The translations under genes were made by a program, and so were the position numbers. A stretch of 64,000 nucleotides of DNA from an uncultured Mediterraneibacter sp. (GTDB lineage Bacteria; Bacillota; Clostridia; Lachnospirales; Lachnospiraceae): positions 1 to 64,000 of the forward strand of contig CALWMN010000013.1 in NCBI GenBank assembly GCA_944381935.1, in the 5' to 3' direction. This document shows, in pieces, positions 18,079-23,533 of this stretch. The notes beneath the pieces are model-generated. The model did not search any database and was not told the origin of the DNA. It saw only the letters and a list, made by a program, of their open reading frames with translations. How positions within the stretch are numbered: the first letter of the stretch is position 1; the number at the start of each line of letters is the position of its first letter.

Positions 18079-18216
18079 TCAGTACTGATGAAGGTATTTT
18101 TCTCTCGTAGCCATCCCGCCCCGGATGTGACGCTCGGATTTGTTGGTATCCAGAACCTTTCGGGCTTCACGGGCAAGGGATGGATTGATTTGAAGGAGCC
18201 GTTCTGTGACATCTTT
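18079..18216 (-). CDS. spoIIID: SpoIIID, C-terminal part (codons 39-83), separated from its 5' half
   Basis: This frame reads KDVTERLLQINPSLAREARK, then VLDTNKSERHIRGGMATREK and YLHQY before TGA. It matches the C-terminal half of SpoIIID, the mother-cell DNA-binding regulator. It has no start codon or ribosome site of its own and runs directly out of the recombinase gene across TACATA. Joined at that core to the 43-codon frame at 23344-23475, it gives an unbroken 83-residue SpoIIID. It is not scored as dead because site-specific excision would repair it. Confidence 0.92.
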   Translation of the reverse strand, partial: KDVTERLLQINPSLAREARKVLDTNKSERHIRGGMATREKYLHQY

Positions 18217-18226
18217 ATGTATGGTT
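18212..18226. other. Left attachment site (attL) of the spoIIID element
   Basis: The minus strand reads AACCATACATAAAGA. TACATA (18216-18221) is shared with the right junction. The element-side arm AACCATA (18220-18226) is the mirror of the TATGGTT arm at the other end, and the core dinucleotide CA is at 18218-18219. The TAA stop of the recombinase lies across this junction. Confidence 0.8.
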
Positions 18227-19750
18227 ATCGCTAATCAAAACGGTTTCATCCAGCCCTAAATCGCCGAATAATCTGAGGTAAATATCCACGTTTCCGTCCT
18301 TGTCCACTTCAATCTTCTGGATAATCTGCTTTAGCTGTTCATTCGTCATATCGCGTACTGACGTTATATCTTCAATATTTCGGAAAGTCATTTTAATCAC
18401 ATCTTCCAACTGGTCGCTTTTATTCAAATTAAACTGTACCAGTTTCAGATTATTTTCCAGCTTTTCAACTTCTTCTTTCATGCCGCCGATTTTCTCGTTC
18501 AACTCTTCGCGGCTAATCAGGTCATCCGTATACATATCCATGTATTTTTGTCGTGTTCTTTTCAGCTTTGCCAAGCTGTCATTCAGTTCTTTTTCGTAGT
18601 CTTGATTTTCGTCCTTTGCCTTATATATTTTCACAAACTCTTTTACTACATGATTTATGATATCGGTTTTATTTTTTAAAACCTCTGTAAAATAATCTTC
18701 TAATGCCTGTATCAACTCATTCTCATCCAAAGTAACTGCATTAGGACAGCTATCCGCCCCTTTGCCGTTATGACCTGAACACACCCAGCGGACATAAGTA
18801 TTTTTATATGTCCGTACCGTTCTTCTAAACGACCAGCCACACTCTTTACACTTTATCAATGTACTAAAAAGATATTTGTTACTTTGTCTTTCTCTGTTCA
18901 TATTAAATGCTCCGTGACGATTTTTCAAAATTTTTTGTGCCTTTTCAAATTGCTCCTGCTCAATCAGCTTTAATTCCGATCTTTCTGTAACCAACCACTC
19001 TTCCTTATCTTTCTTAACTCTGACACCCGTTAAAAAGTCTGTAACTTCCTGTTTCCCATTAATAATTTTACCTGTATAAATCTCATTCGTCAGTATCCGG
19101 CAAATAGCATTTTGACTCCATTTACAGTTTCTCTTTGTCCTATGCCCCTTTTCATTAAGCAGATTTGCAATCTTTGCTGCTCCATATCCCTCTTTTGTAT
19201 ACCAGTTAAAGATTTGCCGGACCGTTTCAGCTTCTTTTTGATTGATTTGCAGATTGAAATAGTCCCCTATAATCTTATCATATCCATACACAATATTGGG
19301 AACTCTTCCTTTCTCTGCGTTCATTCTTTTACCAAATTTCACTCTCTTAGATGTGTTGGCACTCTCTTCTTGTGCCAATGCTCCGAAAATGGTAAGCACA
19401 AACTCTGACTGTCCAAGAACCGTCATATTAGAAGTCAGGAAAGTTGTTTCTATGCCTAATGCTTTCAAGGTCCTGATACTCTGTAAAAGATCTACTGTAT
19501 TCCGGGCAAACCTAGAAATGTCTTTTACAACCACCATGTCAAACAAACCTTGTCCTGCATCTTTCATAAGCTGTAAAAACTCTTTCCTGTTTTTGATTTT
19601 AGTTCCGGATATCCCCTCATCCGCATATAATTTAACAAGATTATGTCCATTTTTTTCTGTATACTCCGAAAAAAATTTCTTTTGTGCATCCAGACTATTG
19701 AGCTGGTCTGTCTTATCGGTTGATACTCGACAATATGCCGCTATGTTCAT
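18215..19750 (-). CDS. Large serine recombinase (skin-type excisionase/integrase)
   Basis: A 511-residue large serine recombinase: catalytic domain with Ser10 in AAYCRVSTDK and the conserved VVVKDISRFARN, a recombinase domain (GYGAAKIANLLNEKGHRT), a zinc ribbon (CKECGW then CSGHNGKGADSCPN) and a coiled coil (about 385-460). The family integrates and excises DNA, including the sigK skin elements. It is transcribed in the same direction as spoIIID, and its stop codon is built by the junction: the final A is chromosomal. After excision the frame would run about 15 codons further. A TTGACA at 19792-19797 lacks a clear -10, so vegetative expression may be low. The ATG at 19750 follows AAAGGAAAGG. 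Confidence 0.95.
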   Translation of the reverse strand: MNIAAYCRVSTDKTDQLNSLDAQKKFFSEYTEKNGHNLVKLYADEGISGTKIKNRKEFLQLMKDAGQGLFDMVVVKDISRFARNTVDLLQSIRTLKALGIETTFLTSNMTVLGQSEFVLTIFGALAQEESANTSKRVKFGKRMNAEKGRVPNIVYGYDKIIGDYFNLQINQKEAETVRQIFNWYTKEGYGAAKIANLLNEKGHRTKRNCKWSQNAICRILTNEIYTGKIINGKQEVTDFLTGVRVKKDKEEWLVTERSELKLIEQEQFEKAQKILKNRHGAFNMNRERQSNKYLFSTLIKCKECGWSFRRTVRTYKNTYVRWVCSGHNGKGADSCPNAVTLDENELIQALEDYFTEVLKNKTDIINHVVKEFVKIYKAKDENQDYEKELNDSLAKLKRTRQKYMDMYTDDLISREELNEKIGGMKEEVEKLENNLKLVQFNLNKSDQLEDVIKMTFRNIEDITSVRDMTNEQLKQIIQKIEVDKDGNVDIYLRLFGDLGLDETVLISDNHT

Positions 19751-19829
19751 ACCGTTCAACCTTTCCTTTTATTTTTATTCGTTCTGTTACATGTCAATTA
19801 TATAACTGACTATAATAAAAAACAAGAAA

Positions 19830-19852
19830 ATGGAGAGTTTTTCACTCTCCAT
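19830..19852 (-). terminator. Terminator of the ATPase-PIN pair
   Basis: An 8-bp stem ATGGAGAG/CTCTCCAT with a 7-nt loop, followed on the minus strand by TTTTCTTGTTTTTTA. It separates this pair from the recombinase gene. Confidence 0.8.
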
Positions 19853-19863
19853 GCTTTCCAAAA

Positions 19864-20349
19864 CTATCTATTTTTTCGCCTCTTCATAGTCATCATTTCT
19901 CTGTATCCGGCTAAATGTGCGTCCGTACTCCATATCATAATTCGTCCGATTCCCGGTGTAGTCTCTTTGTATTTTTCATAAAACCGGATAATACTCATAT
20001 CTCCAATTCCCATTCCCATGTGTAAAGCCCGGTTTGGAAATTCATCAGCCAGAAACTCTAAATCTTCCTTTGTAAGTTCTACACCATAAAAAGTCCACGG
20101 TGTTTCTTCTCTTGCAGTCTTTTTAAGGAACTCCTGAAATTTCAGTGCCTTCTCTCTTCGTATCGTCCCATTAGCTATATGCGCAATATGATTTCCACTT
20201 TCTATAATTGTAGACATAGGAAGAATCAGTGTCTCTTTTTCTGCAACCGCTTTAGCAAATTCCAATTTTACACTTTCTGCGTCTGCACACATATGTGGTA
20301 CTTCAAGGAGATTCATCACGATAGAGGTGTCCATAAATCTAACATTCAT
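19864..20349 (-). CDS. PIN-like putative nuclease paired with an ATPase
   Basis: A 161-residue protein with PIN-type acidic residues in order: D7 (RFMDTSIVMNLL), E50 (STIIESGNHIAH), D117 (GIGDMSIIRFYEK) and D143 (WSTDAHLAGY). PIN domains are metal-dependent RNases. The start is the ATG at 20349, preceded by GGGGGTG, only 2 bp after the ATPase stop, so the two are coupled. An ATPase followed by a small nuclease resembles two-gene defence or toxin modules such as PARIS, whose second gene is TOPRIM rather than PIN. Function is inference. Confidence 0.7.
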   Translation of the reverse strand: MNVRFMDTSIVMNLLEVPHMCADAESVKLEFAKAVAEKETLILPMSTIIESGNHIAHIANGTIRREKALKFQEFLKKTAREETPWTFYGVELTKEDLEFLADEFPNRALHMGMGIGDMSIIRFYEKYKETTPGIGRIMIWSTDAHLAGYREMMTMKRRKNR

Positions 20350-20351
20350 AT

Positions 20352-21629
20352 TCACACCCCCAACCATTCATAATTTGCTTGCTGAAGTGGATTTTTTATC
20401 ATATTGATAATCGAATCATCGAGCATGGCATCTCCCAATCCACCTTTAGCAAGTAATTTCGGATACTGTTCAATGTCAACAAGCGAAATAAAATTGCTCG
20501 TTCCTTTTTCTCTGTCTCTATATACAACAGAAACACCTAATAACTTCTCTTTATCATATTTATTCAGTAAAATCGGGTTATGCGTTGTAATAATAATATC
20601 CACATTTCTTTTCTTTCCAATTTCACTCAGCTTATTGATTAGCGTGCTTACTCTGCTTGGATGAATACCATTATCAATTTCCTCTACAACCAAAATTCCT
20701 CCTTCGGGGATGGAAAGTATGGCTGCTACAATGGCAATACAGCGTAATGTTCCATCTGACAGTTTCTTAGCATCCACTACTTCTGAGGCTGTCATATAAC
20801 GTTCTTTCAATGCAAAGATAACGTCATCCAACTTTGTCTTAATAAATTCAATGCCCTTAACTTCATTTTCCGGCAGACTGCATATAATTTCTAGAATCTC
20901 CTTTTTTTGTTCTTCCGTCTGGCATAATTGATACAATACCGAAGAAATATTTTCTGCGTTTTCCTTTAGCGCTGTATCAGTAAGCCTTACATAGTCACGC
21001 ATATCTTTAGGCACAGGATTTAATACAAAAATCCCTTTTAAATTTTCCAAGACTAAATTAACGTAACCGAGGCACTCTTCATCACGCCTTGTATTTTGTG
21101 GAAGTTTGCTTCTTAACTGTGCCAAAACAGAGGATACACGCATACAGATAATATCGGGATTTCTTCCTGTTTTCTTATCATTATATTCTGCCCGTATATC
21201 CCCACTGTCTTTAGAAGAAACGGCTTTCGTTTTAAATATTTTTTCTCCACCGGCAATAGTGGTTTTTCCATTTTCAACTTTATACAGTCCTTCTTCTTCT
21301 ACCCACACCCTCTTACTGGTGCTGATCCGAATATAATAAAGCAAATCGCACTGGTCGTCCAGATCAATCAGACACCCCAACTTAAACGATGTTGTTTTAA
21401 AACGACAACACGCTCCACTGCCGCCTCTTATATGGCTATCATTATTCCTTGTTCCGTCCAAAACAATACTTAAATCTACCCCTGTGGCTAATTCAGCAAG
21501 TATCTGTATTCCCTCAACCGCATTACTTTTTCCAGACGAGTTAGAACCAATCAAGCTGGTAACACTTTCTAAAGACAGTTCTGCCTTTTCAAAGCTTTTA
21601 AAATTTTCAAATATAAAACTCTTTATCAT
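20352..21629 (-). CDS. ABC/SMC-type AAA ATPase (OLD-like, AAA_21)
   Basis: A 425-residue ATPase that begins with the family hallmark SFIFENFKSFEKAEL. Walker A is IGSNSSGKSN (Lys34), the signature-like LSDGTLRCIAIVAAIL, and Walker B GGILVVEEIDNGIHPSR is followed by IIITTHNPILLNKY. This is the OLD/RecF-like class without a TOPRIM domain. Such ATPases act as phage sensors or nuclease regulators when paired with an effector; here the partner is PIN-like. The ATG at 21629 has AAAGGGTGAT upstream; an in-frame GTG lies 9 bp earlier. Confidence 0.88.
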   Translation of the reverse strand: MIKSFIFENFKSFEKAELSLESVTSLIGSNSSGKSNAVEGIQILAELATGVDLSIVLDGTRNNDSHIRGGSGACCRFKTTSFKLGCLIDLDDQCDLLYYIRISTSKRVWVEEEGLYKVENGKTTIAGGEKIFKTKAVSSKDSGDIRAEYNDKKTGRNPDIICMRVSSVLAQLRSKLPQNTRRDEECLGYVNLVLENLKGIFVLNPVPKDMRDYVRLTDTALKENAENISSVLYQLCQTEEQKKEILEIICSLPENEVKGIEFIKTKLDDVIFALKERYMTASEVVDAKKLSDGTLRCIAIVAAILSIPEGGILVVEEIDNGIHPSRVSTLINKLSEIGKKRNVDIIITTHNPILLNKYDKEKLLGVSVVYRDREKGTSNFISLVDIEQYPKLLAKGGLGDAMLDDSIINMIKNPLQQANYEWLGV

Positions 21630-21694
21630 CTTTATCACCCTTTATTCCATAGAGCATTTCTAAAAATCTGCATTTTTAAATTTGTTTATTATGT

Positions 21695-21703
21695 AGTATA
21701 CCA
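21695..21703 (-). promoter_or_regulatory. Extended -10 promoter of the ATPase-PIN pair
   Basis: TGGTATACT on the minus strand is an extended -10 element, about 65 bp before the ATPase start. No strong -35 is seen. Confidence 0.45.
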
Positions 21704-21755
21704 TATTCCTCCTGCTAAATATAGATAATTTCCTCATTATCTCCCGCTCCTTTTG

Positions 21756-21792
21756 AAAGGAAAGCCGCTATCCGGCAATGCGGCTTTCCTTT
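21756..21792 (-). terminator. Strong hairpin after the 60-residue gene
   Basis: A perfect 13-bp stem AAAGGAAAGCCGC/GCGGCTTTCCTTT with an 11-nt loop overlaps the end of the small gene. Its T-tract on the minus strand is poor, so it may be a terminator or an end-processing hairpin. Confidence 0.5.
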
Positions 21793-21950
21793 TCCTGCTT
21801 TCCCTGAATTGTATTTTCCGTTATGTAGTCCTGTACGATCCTGTCTACCTTTTTCAAATTCGCCTGGATCATAACATCTGCTATGTATTTCGCAGTCACT
21901 TCCGGGGAATTGGGGTTATGAAACCGGAATTTTAACTTTCTTTTCAGCAT
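21768..21950 (-). CDS. Small mobile-element protein (60 aa)
   Basis: A 60-residue protein beginning MLKRKLKFRFHNPNSPE with a central VTAKYIADVMIQANLKKVDR. From memory, similar short proteins (KLKFRFHNPN... then EAN-K-V) are common beside large serine recombinases in clostridial elements, but their function is unknown. The ATG at 21950 is chosen because GAGGTGG lies just before it; an upstream in-frame ATG at 21980 has no ribosome site. It supports assignment of this stretch to the mobile element. Confidence 0.6.
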   Translation of the reverse strand: MLKRKLKFRFHNPNSPEVTAKYIADVMIQANLKKVDRIVQDYITENTIQGKQEKESRIAG

Positions 21951-22122
21951 AACCACCTCTTTCTCCTCATGTTGTTCCATCCTATGTATGCAAACTGTTT
22001 TTTATGACTTTGCAGCCAATAACAAAACATCACTTTCATATTTTTCGTTGCGTCTGGATTTTTCACCTGCTTATCTTTCTATCCCAGCTTTGACAAATTT
22101 TTACATAATTATCTGTTTAATA

Positions 22123-22163
22123 TTGACATATGTTCCTTAATAATATATATTACTATTAAGAAC
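22123..22163 (+). promoter_or_regulatory. Promoter and operator of the Fur-type regulator gene
   Basis: TTGACA (22123-22128), a 17-bp spacer and TATATT (22146-22151). An imperfect inverted repeat, GTTCCTTAATAAT with ATTACTATTAAGAAC (22132-22163), overlaps the -10. It has the size and AT-rich form of Fur/PerR boxes and suggests autoregulation. Confidence 0.7.
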
Positions 22164-22188
22164 ACGTTAACAAAAGGAGTTTTTTTGA

Positions 22189-22608
22189 ATGAAACGTAAT
22201 ACCATTCAACGTTCTTTGACATTAGATGCAGTACAAAAACTAAAATGTCATCCGACTGCTGAGGAAGTATATGACTTTGTCGCTTCCGAGCACCCTACTA
22301 TCAGCAGAGGAACAGTTTATAGAAACTTAAATCAGCTTGCCGCCAACGGAGAAATCCGCAAAATGGAAATCCCGTCCGGTGCTGATCACTTTGATCATCT
22401 CTGTCATGATCACTATCATGTCAGATGTTTAAAATGTAGCAGAGTTTTTGATGTAGATATGGATTATATTCCAGATTTGGAGAAATCGATAAAGAATACT
22501 CATGGATTTGAACTAAGCGGGTATGATCTTACGTTCAAGGGTATCTGTCCTGATTGCTCCATGTCAGATCAAACACGTGCGAATACGGGCGCAAATTCCC
22601 GTAAATAA
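22189..22608 (+). CDS. Fur/PerR-family metalloregulator
   Basis: A 139-residue Fur-superfamily repressor: winged helix (about 10-80; HPTAEEVYDFVASEHPTISRG, then TVYRNLNQLAANGEI), regulatory metal site (DHFDHLCHDHYH) and two CxxC pairs for structural zinc (VRCLKCSRVF and GICPDCS). This pattern is closest to PerR-type members. The N-terminus is short, starting MKRNTIQRSLTLDAV. It is followed after 21 bp by the pterin-synthase-like gene, so it probably controls that gene. Location inside the spoIIID element makes it cargo. Confidence 0.88.
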   Translation: MKRNTIQRSLTLDAVQKLKCHPTAEEVYDFVASEHPTISRGTVYRNLNQLAANGEIRKMEIPSGADHFDHLCHDHYHVRCLKCSRVFDVDMDYIPDLEKSIKNTHGFELSGYDLTFKGICPDCSMSDQTRANTGANSRK

Positions 22609-22629
22609 TATATAAAAGGAGATTTATCA

Positions 22630-23196
22630 ATGAGAAGTATCACAACACTTGATCTGCAGTATGCACACCGGTTTTATGGGTTTAAAGGAGAAGCCCAGTA
22701 TTTACACGGTCACACAGGAGTTTTGACCATTGAGGTTGAAGATTCCGTTAATTCTGGAGTAAATATGGTTTTCCCATGTAATGAAATCCAAAAAACTGCC
22801 TGGGAAGTTTTGAAAAACTTCGACCATGCATTGGTTCTGCGGGAAGATGATCCGCTGTTGCCGGCTATTCTTGACGTTTACGAAAAACAGGGTATCAGAA
22901 ACGGCGCGCCAAATAATGTAATGAAAGGACCTGCTTTCAAGACAGAACTGGCTACTGCTTATCCAGAATGTCGCCTGGTGGTTACAAAAGAAACGATGAC
23001 TGTTGAAGGCATGATTAAGATTGTTTATGACCTTCTGAAAGATAAGCTGAACATTGTCAAGCTGACCTTTACCAGCGGTGTTAACGCAGCTTCCGAGGAA
23101 TATAAACCAAACTTGAACGTGGATCGCTGTCCACTGTGTGGTATTGCACTGGACGAAAACGGTGTATGCCCGAAATGTGGATATAAAAAAGGCTGA
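22630..23196 (+). CDS. 6-pyruvoyl-tetrahydropterin synthase-like protein with zinc ribbon
   Basis: A 188-residue protein of the PTPS/QueD superfamily. The three zinc histidines are present (H13 in LQYAHRF, H26 and H28 in YLHGHTG). The catalytic Cys that QueD carries four residues before the HGH motif is Ala22, so normal 6-carboxytetrahydropterin synthesis is doubtful. The C-terminus adds a rubredoxin-like zinc ribbon (CPLCG then CPKCG) not found in standard QueD. Ribosome site AAAGGAGA. It probably forms an operon with the Fur-type gene; a metal or stress-related role is inference. Confidence 0.75.
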   Translation: MRSITTLDLQYAHRFYGFKGEAQYLHGHTGVLTIEVEDSVNSGVNMVFPCNEIQKTAWEVLKNFDHALVLREDDPLLPAILDVYEKQGIRNGAPNNVMKGPAFKTELATAYPECRLVVTKETMTVEGMIKIVYDLLKDKLNIVKLTFTSGVNAASEEYKPNLNVDRCPLCGIALDENGVCPKCGYKKG

Positions 23197-23233
23197 GATT
23201 CTATTGTAAATAATTTTCAAAAGTAAACATAAG

Positions 23234-23267
23234 AAAAGGGCTGGTGAATAATTACCTGCCCTTTTTG
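23234..23267 (+). terminator. Terminator of the Fur/pterin-synthase pair
   Basis: An 8-bp stem AAAAGGGC/GCCCTTTT with a 16-nt loop, followed by T residues on the plus strand. Confidence 0.7.
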
Positions 23268-23343
23268 CTATAGGATTCTAAGAGGATATTCTTAAGGGGT
23301 ATCGTATAAGAACTCATCTATATTATCTCAAACCATAGCCGTT

Positions 23344-23475
23344 CTATTTTGTTACAACCATATGTACCGTACTCTTACTGATCTTAAACTGTTTGGCCGT
23401 CTGCCTCACAGTCGCGTTATTTTCTATAATATAATCAGCAATCTCCACGGCTCTCTCTTCAATATAATCTTTCAA
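23344..23475 (-). CDS. spoIIID: SpoIIID, N-terminal part (codons 1-38), interrupted
   Basis: Starts at a TTG (23475) after AGGGGGA and reads LKDYIEERAVEIADYIIENN, then ATVRQTAKQFKISKSTVH. This is the helix-turn-helix half of SpoIIID. After codon 38 the frame enters the element and adds only MVVTK before TAG, so the unexcised product is a 43-residue stub cut just after the recognition helix. The missing KDVTERL... half lies at 18079-18216. SpoIIID directs late mother-cell genes in sporulation, so without rearrangement the cell should lack it. Confidence 0.92.
   Translation of the reverse strand: MKDYIEERAVEIADYIIENNATVRQTAKQFKISKSTVHMVVTK
23356..23369. other. Right attachment site (attR) of the spoIIID element
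   Basis: The minus strand reads CGGTACATATGGTT. TACATA (23361-23366) is common to both junctions. The element-side arm TATGGTT (23356-23362) mirrors the AACCATA arm at the left end. The core CA is at 23363-23364. Confidence 0.8.
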
Positions 23476-23504: not shown

Positions 23505-23533
23505 AATGTATGCGGGGGTTTTTGAAGTCATTC
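23505..23533 (-). promoter_or_regulatory. Sigma-E-like promoter of spoIIID
   Basis: On the minus strand GAATGAC (23527-23533), a 14-bp spacer, then CATACATT (23505-23512). The -10 matches the sigma-E consensus CATACAnT. It lies about 30 bp before the TTG start, fitting mother-cell expression of spoIIID. Confidence 0.65.

Follow-up and report, generated by a model that had tools for sequence, protein, structure and literature searches.

A skin-like element with a large serine recombinase splits spoIIID in Mediterraneibacter and other Lachnospiraceae and is predicted to be excised during sporulation

In the 64-kb stretch of an uncultured Mediterraneibacter sp. genome analyzed here (contig CALWMN010000013.1 of assembly GCA_944381935.1, positions 1 to 64,000; hereafter the window), the genome's sole gene for the mother-cell regulator SpoIIID lies in two in-frame parts on the minus strand, 5,145 bp apart, with a large serine recombinase gene (its product is referred to as REC) in the intervening DNA. 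From the sequence evidence laid out below we consider it probable that this REC-bearing element, which cuts spoIIID between codons 38 and 39, would be excised in the mother cell during sporulation and so restore the gene.

A split spoIIID gene and its recombinase

The 5′ half of spoIIID (23362..23475, minus strand) comprises codons 1–38 from a TTG start at 23475, reads (TTG)KDYIEERAVEIADYIIENNATVRQTAKQFKISKSTVH and continues in frame for five codons inside the element before meeting a stop; the 3′ half (18079..18216, minus strand) supplies codons 39–83, reading KDVTERLLQINPSLAREARKVLDTNKSERHIRGGMATREKYLHQY, and the stop codon. Each half passes the 27-bit cut-off of the Pfam SpoIIID model PF12116 alone, the first with 62.8 bits over profile positions 1–41 and the second with 69.1 bits over positions 38–81. 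Both junctions share TACATA, with a CA inside it at 23364-23363 and 18219-18218; joining there gives one 83-residue protein in frame, which aligns without gaps to residues 1–80 of the B. subtilis SpoIIID structure (PDB 2l0k, E 3e-26). A preliminary description, made from the letters of the window, had proposed just such a pair of complementary halves around an element of 5.1 kb, and both the halves and the size hold (18217..23361). It had also named a second intact spoIIID as one observation that would speak against it, and none exists at the sensitivity of a PF12116 scan: run over all 3.04 Mb of this genome, whose completeness is 99.88%, the profile returned the two partial matches and no further SpoIIID.

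In REC (18215..19759, minus strand, 514 aa) the domain order is Resolvase, Recombinase, zinc ribbon, and the solved structures related to it by sequence include TnpX and the TP901-1 integrase. Its gene adjoins the junction and is transcribed in the same direction as spoIIID, as first described, and its TAA stop codon spans the junction, taking one base from the element and two from the start of codon 39. The element is also set apart by composition (G+C 37.4%, against 46.2% and 49.3% in the flanks). An in-frame split gene with a short shared core, the lack of an intact copy and a recombinase gene inside the element are among the marks of skin-type elements, and these three are found here.

We regard it as wholly improbable that an assembly error placed unrelated DNA within spoIIID, and rejected this for the window. 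The window genome does consist of 54 contigs, and in one other genome (G140) an apparent split was discarded on finding a contig break within spoIIID; here, by contrast, both halves stand on one contig, within one 64-kb window between host genes, and the same junction recurs in a single-contig genome of 3.4 Mb (G228) and in isolate genomes.

The same junction in other genomes and the state of the split gene

Among 58 genomes of the genus, the window's included, 39 hold full-length spoIIID (an intact gene in related Lachnospiraceae had been named as worth seeking), 11 give partial matches only and eight give none. REC adjoins the 3′ half in seven of the 11 partial-match genomes (G000, which is the window's own, G001, G020, G029, G039, G052 and G055). 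Scanning genome contigs with REC yielded 88 relatives, of which 80 were retained, and in 72 of these 80 loci the 3′ half of spoIIID follows REC within 200 bp. The 5′ half is also present in 22 loci, upstream and on the same strand; L116 and L122 additionally hold an intact copy. Twelve of the 13 genomes behind named loci contain only the two halves, 11 of them on one contig and 4–31 kb apart; the named two-half hosts include Sporofaciens musculi, Blautia glucerasea, B. schinkii, Extibacter muris and Agathobaculum butyriciproducens, and the thirteenth genome is that of Anaerocolumna sp. AGMB13025, with an additional intact gene.

Of 296 Lachnospiraceae genomes with a completeness of 95% or more, 191 had SpoIIID over the cut-off, and in 23 of these the best match reaches only half-gene strength (E 1e-16 to 1e-23; G346, at 8.8e-7, falls outside this set). 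Fifteen of these 23 have REC at E ≤ 1e-100, versus none of 40 comparison genomes (20 with intact SpoIIID, picked by hand, and the first 20 listed without SpoIIID). The 3′ half adjoins REC in all 15, where REC is 44–78% identical to the window's, apart from the window's own; a further carrier (G148) has REC cut by a contig end. This element type therefore occurs in at least 16 of the 191 sampled Lachnospiraceae with SpoIIID, two more (G154 and G181) carry another class, and four half-gene genomes (G058, G308, G312 and G340) were counted in neither. Because the counts rest on similarity to the window REC, other element types are under-counted.

That other class, seen at L025 (G025), L217 (G154) and L221 (G181), has three tandem recombinases and ends at spoIIID codon 39/40; at L025 its end reads TTGACACCA before CCAGATGTC, a few bases from the core of the first class. 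In four genomes an intact spoIIID is accompanied by a second 3′ fragment 1–5 kb downstream on the same strand (L035 in G002, L036 in G011, L037 in G049, L038 in G053). These extra fragments come after TTGACA- or CTGACA-type ends, and the elements concerned perhaps bring their own copy of the spoIIID 3′ end. At L041 (G043), a 5′ half with an element arm is left 4 kb upstream of an intact spoIIID.

None of 24 split genes contains a stop codon, and the cross-genus ratio of non-synonymous to synonymous differences (pN/pS) is 0.171 in split genes (n = 23, L097 being left out for its N letters) versus 0.141 in intact ones (n = 20), at an equal pS of 0.79 and with codon windows that differ by one codon; on these sequences the halves appear to be held nearly as tightly as intact genes. 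An earlier comparison of substitution rates (dN/dS; split 0.090 and 0.102, intact 0.025 and 0.016) was replaced, its intact set being mostly of one genus and its divergence unmatched. The sporulation protein SpoIVA is over its cut-off in 23/23 half-gene genomes and 20/20 with intact SpoIIID, as compared with 2/20 genomes without SpoIIID (one further genome of the last group has a weak match below the cut-off).

These results bear on the reading in which a dead insertion has destroyed spoIIID for good and the lineage has lost sporulation. Some fragments elsewhere do carry stops (G031, G053 and G058), and a literature look-up gave no spore phenotype for the split hosts, both of which such a loss would explain; set against them are the absence of stops from all 24 split genes, the near-intact pN/pS across genera, the intact REC of the window and the retention of SpoIVA throughout the half-gene genomes, and we judge permanent breakage very unlikely.

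The gene for the later mother-cell factor, sigK, is itself split in three of the 23 half-gene genomes; full-length sigK-like genes occur in the remaining 20, seven of them above the model's own cut-off. In the window genome the two sigK parts are on two contigs (C22:4428-4712 and C21:1676-2023; L210 and L211), and the 3′ part is where a recombinase-like frame of 561 aa ends. G222 has both parts on one contig about 20 kb apart (C1:659043-659399 and 679202-679486; L212 and L213), and here too the 3′ part has a recombinase-like frame beside it; in G307 they lie on contigs C19 and C68. The element described here is inserted in spoIIID and is not a sigK skin element; the sigK split is separate.

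Attachment sites, cargo and a conserved partner gene

Each junction of the window element can be written as an attachment (att) site of 24 bases, the CA noted above and 24 bases (23339..23388 at the 5′ junction and 18194..18243 at the 3′ junction, both minus strand). In 24 complete elements we joined the element ends into a circle junction, thereby reconstructing the element's own site (attP). CA is found at both junctions in 24/24, and the two arms of attP match symmetrically at a mean of 15.3 of 24 positions versus 6.7 after shuffling. The symmetry exists only with CA at the center (a shift of 1–3 bases lowers it to 5–8), and the host site is asymmetric (7.2). Symmetric sites are a known form for serine integrases (PMC5595907).

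An uncut form of the site was found on a 62-kb IMG/VR contig (L153:9730-11578), where an integrase 69% identical to REC is followed by attP with a symmetry of 16/24. The integrase frame of this contig continues across the uncut attP, whereas the window REC ends in the junction-spanning TAA. Inspection of tail-like and endolysin-like frames suggests that the contig is phage-like. Two viral-contig matches to a pattern like the one used to look for excised circles (below), having neither recombinase nor spoIIID, were dropped. The junction and attP data support the view that the element enters, and could leave, spoIIID by site-specific recombination. It has also moved among hosts more freely than spoIIID itself: in three congeners (L023, L028 and L032) full-length REC shares 75–77% identity with that of the window and the spoIIID 3′ half 91–98%, and in Sporofaciens musculi both stand at 85%.

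The cargo of the window element comprises a candidate phage-defense pair recognized by PADLOC models, PDC-M07B (19864..20367, minus strand, 1.7e-50) and the AAA ATPase PDC-M07A (20352..21638, minus strand, 6e-136), together with a FUR-family regulator (22189..22608, plus strand, 1.5e-26) and a PTPS/QueD-like protein (22630..23196, plus strand, 1.2e-10). Cargo differs among elements, and one (L044) carries a relaxase. A hand-picked survey of 26 proteins from 12 elements found PADLOC defense models in four: the window's pair, AbiLi in L052 and L060 (L052 also AbiLii) and KwaA/KwaB in L064. Defense as a general cargo theme was rejected on this count.

Apart from REC, a single family is universal. 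Among the frames of the 24 complete elements (those overlapping REC aside) the families REC and SM stand out, the next occurring in seven; SM, a small protein encoded on the REC strand, was found in 19 elements by frame comparison (43–82 aa) and in 24/24 by a six-frame profile search, making it a conserved partner gene of REC. A relative lies just upstream of the integrase on the phage-like contig. SM has no match in Pfam, NCBIfam or PADLOC, and ten relatives in a large protein database are all unnamed. On its sequence context we propose SM as a candidate recombination directionality factor. Such factors are described as all different in PMC10747680. The window gene (21768..21980, minus strand) is listed at 70 aa; a 60-aa form starting from the ATG at 21950 is probably the real one, because the −10 element of the candidate promoter overlaps the first ATG of the listed frame, and five SM relatives have this length.

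Promoters were scored with what we take to be the sigmaE consensus, after merging upstream regions more than 75% alike (leaving 52 for SM, 64 for REC, or 62 for the half-site count below, and 40 for spoIIID). SM upstreams often show GACTATT-N14-CATA. A sigmaE-type promoter (at least 12/15) precedes SM in 22/52 cases versus 2.8 expected, and REC in 6/64 versus 5.0 expected; a stricter pattern leaves 18/52 for SM versus 0.0 expected, and 0/64 for REC. The yardstick first at hand, spoIVA, gave 6/24 versus 1.3 expected, and because its start calls are unreliable the spoIIID upstreams were taken as the control. They carry a sigmaE-type promoter in 36/40 cases versus 2.6 expected, alike in split and intact genes, with a 14-base spacing in 35/40 of the best sites. 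In the window the candidate promoter of spoIIID is GAATGAC-N14-CATACATT (23505..23533, minus strand), and that of SM is TCATAAA-N14-CATAGGAT (21977..22008, minus strand), a weak match taken alone.

The REC upstreams present a different picture. A vegetative-type promoter is found in 39/64 versus 24.8 expected, and from this set of relatives such a promoter would lie in the window at 19780..19825 (minus strand). The same region carries GTAACAGAACG, an att-half-site-like motif that resembles the element arm and spoIIID codons 41–44 and recurs with at most two mismatches in 39/62 REC upstreams (1.0 expected), versus 0/52 SM upstreams. We suggest that REC may repress itself. Taken over the whole set of upstreams, the SM gene, rather than the REC gene, seems to carry the sporulation signal.

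The phage-like contig with its integrase of the same kind and its uncut attP, the varied cargo (defense models in a third of the elements surveyed, a relaxase in L044) and the failure to see an excised circle in 34 genomes would all suit a prophage remnant or mobile island for which spoIIID is no more than an integration site, which is excised on stress or for transfer and not in development, and whose host sporulates poorly or not at all. Such an element would not explain why both spoIIID halves remain under constraint, why SpoIVA is kept in 23/23 half-gene genomes and full-length sigK-like genes in 20/23, or why sigmaE-type promoters stand before SM and before the split spoIIID itself; we hold it to be unlikely, if less so than permanent breakage.

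Predicted excision and its place in the sporulation cascade

The reading of a skin-like element, put forward in the preliminary description, gains support from a constant junction with varied cargo, a symmetric attP that is met uncut on a phage-like contig, constrained halves, the retention of SpoIVA and a conserved SM with a sigmaE-type promoter. From these features we infer that excision occurs and that only the mother cell carries it out. REC would be made in growing cells, where alone it would carry out integration only. Once sigmaE is active in the mother cell, spoIIID and SM would be transcribed, and SM as directionality factor would switch REC to excision, with recombination between the two CA cores; spoIIID, once joined, would read 83 codons in frame and its product would act on later genes. 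No SpoIIID is present until excision has taken place, and sigmaE would therefore have to act as trigger unaided by it. Since the mother cell dies, it is the forespore that would retain the element.

Several observations weigh against this proposal. The excised circle was not found in 34 genomes searched with one pattern, whose six matches were all 5′ junctions, because the host's ACGGTACAT also fits the pattern; the SM promoter of the window scores 11/15, a value often reached by shuffles; and, beside the missing spore phenotype of split hosts, several other Lachnospiraceae are described as non-spore-forming. The arrangement is also not uniform. The 3′ half is 2–7 kb from REC in four of the 80 loci (L057, L058, L059 and L115) and absent in four (L051, L100, L108 and L118); ATP-synthase genes lie between the two spoIIID halves at L059:13782-17856; at L108:11474-11626 the REC gene is followed by a spoIIID 5′ half that faces the other way, as though the DNA had been inverted; and G056 and Anaerocolumna sp. 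AGMB13025 (G359) have an intact spoIIID beside fragments. Given these intact copies and the genus fragments with stops, elements can become remnants, and clearly they can also decay or rearrange. At L051:7971 a REC relative with the usual element end has no spoIIID following it, and possibly uses another target.

The nearest precedents are the skin elements of sigK. That of C. difficile (CD1231, CD1234) likewise places a large serine recombinase inside a split mother-cell gene; according to PMC5025042, CD1231 is also expressed vegetatively, sigmaE and SpoIIID control the directionality factor CD1234, and the skin is excised only if CD1231 and CD1234 are both available. This wiring is excluded here because the gene to be restored is SpoIIID's own: the target is spoIIID instead of sigK, and SpoIIID cannot take part in its own excision. 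The B. subtilis skin in sigK (SpoIVCA) shares a split regulator gene with the recombinase gene within the element, and a promoter dependent on sigmaE and SpoIIID is named for it in PMC6957869, whereas the candidate signal here is on SM and cannot need SpoIIID. The gin element in gerE of Bacillus cereus (GirC, GirX) is likewise non-prophage, in a very short regulator gene and with a symmetric attachment site, and a small factor is needed for direction (PMC5595907). It differs in its length of 28.6 kb, its three recombinases and its target, a gene of the late sigmaK stage; the element of the window has 5.1 kb and one recombinase.

Prophage-like elements also interrupt sporulation genes, as SPbeta does in spsM, vfbin in spoVFB, vrin in spoVR and yin in yabG. 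To our knowledge, spsM, spoVFB, spoVR and yabG are not mother-cell regulators acting before sigmaK. The fdxN element of cyanobacteria is excised in development by the serine recombinase XisF; REC matches the XisF model at 1.8e-36 with 126 bits against a cut-off of 375, scores higher with CcrB (161 bits) and is not an XisF member. The intervened sporulation genes named in the literature available to us are sigK, spoVFB, spoVR, spsM, gerE and yabG, and a search of open-access literature, a scope outside which most subscription journals lie, found no interruption of spoIIID, in agreement with what had been said at the outset. The mechanism is of a known kind; what is new is the gene that is hit, the position of that gene in the cascade, the wide occurrence in Clostridia and the splitting of two genes in one genome.

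If SpoIIID controls the sigK skin as it does in C. difficile, the two splits of the window genome imply two excisions in series, which we consider likely there. In the fuller scheme, toward which we lean by a modest degree, a sigmaE-triggered, SpoIIID-independent excision would build spoIIID, whose product would license sigK excision, and at least two recombinase classes (one shared with phage) would have repeatedly invaded the same spoIIID codons across gut Clostridia, amounting to a recurrent developmental DNA switch.

Of the developmental DNA rearrangements in spore formers, excision from sigK is the most familiar, and in the species where its control has been described it is SpoIIID-dependent. 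An element in spoIIID would move the rearrangement to an earlier mother-cell regulator, with a trigger that must be SpoIIID-free, and SM is a likely directionality factor for the whole recombinase family. For gut bacteria whose sporulation is judged from genomes, the same split may lead to spoIIID being counted as defective or missing.

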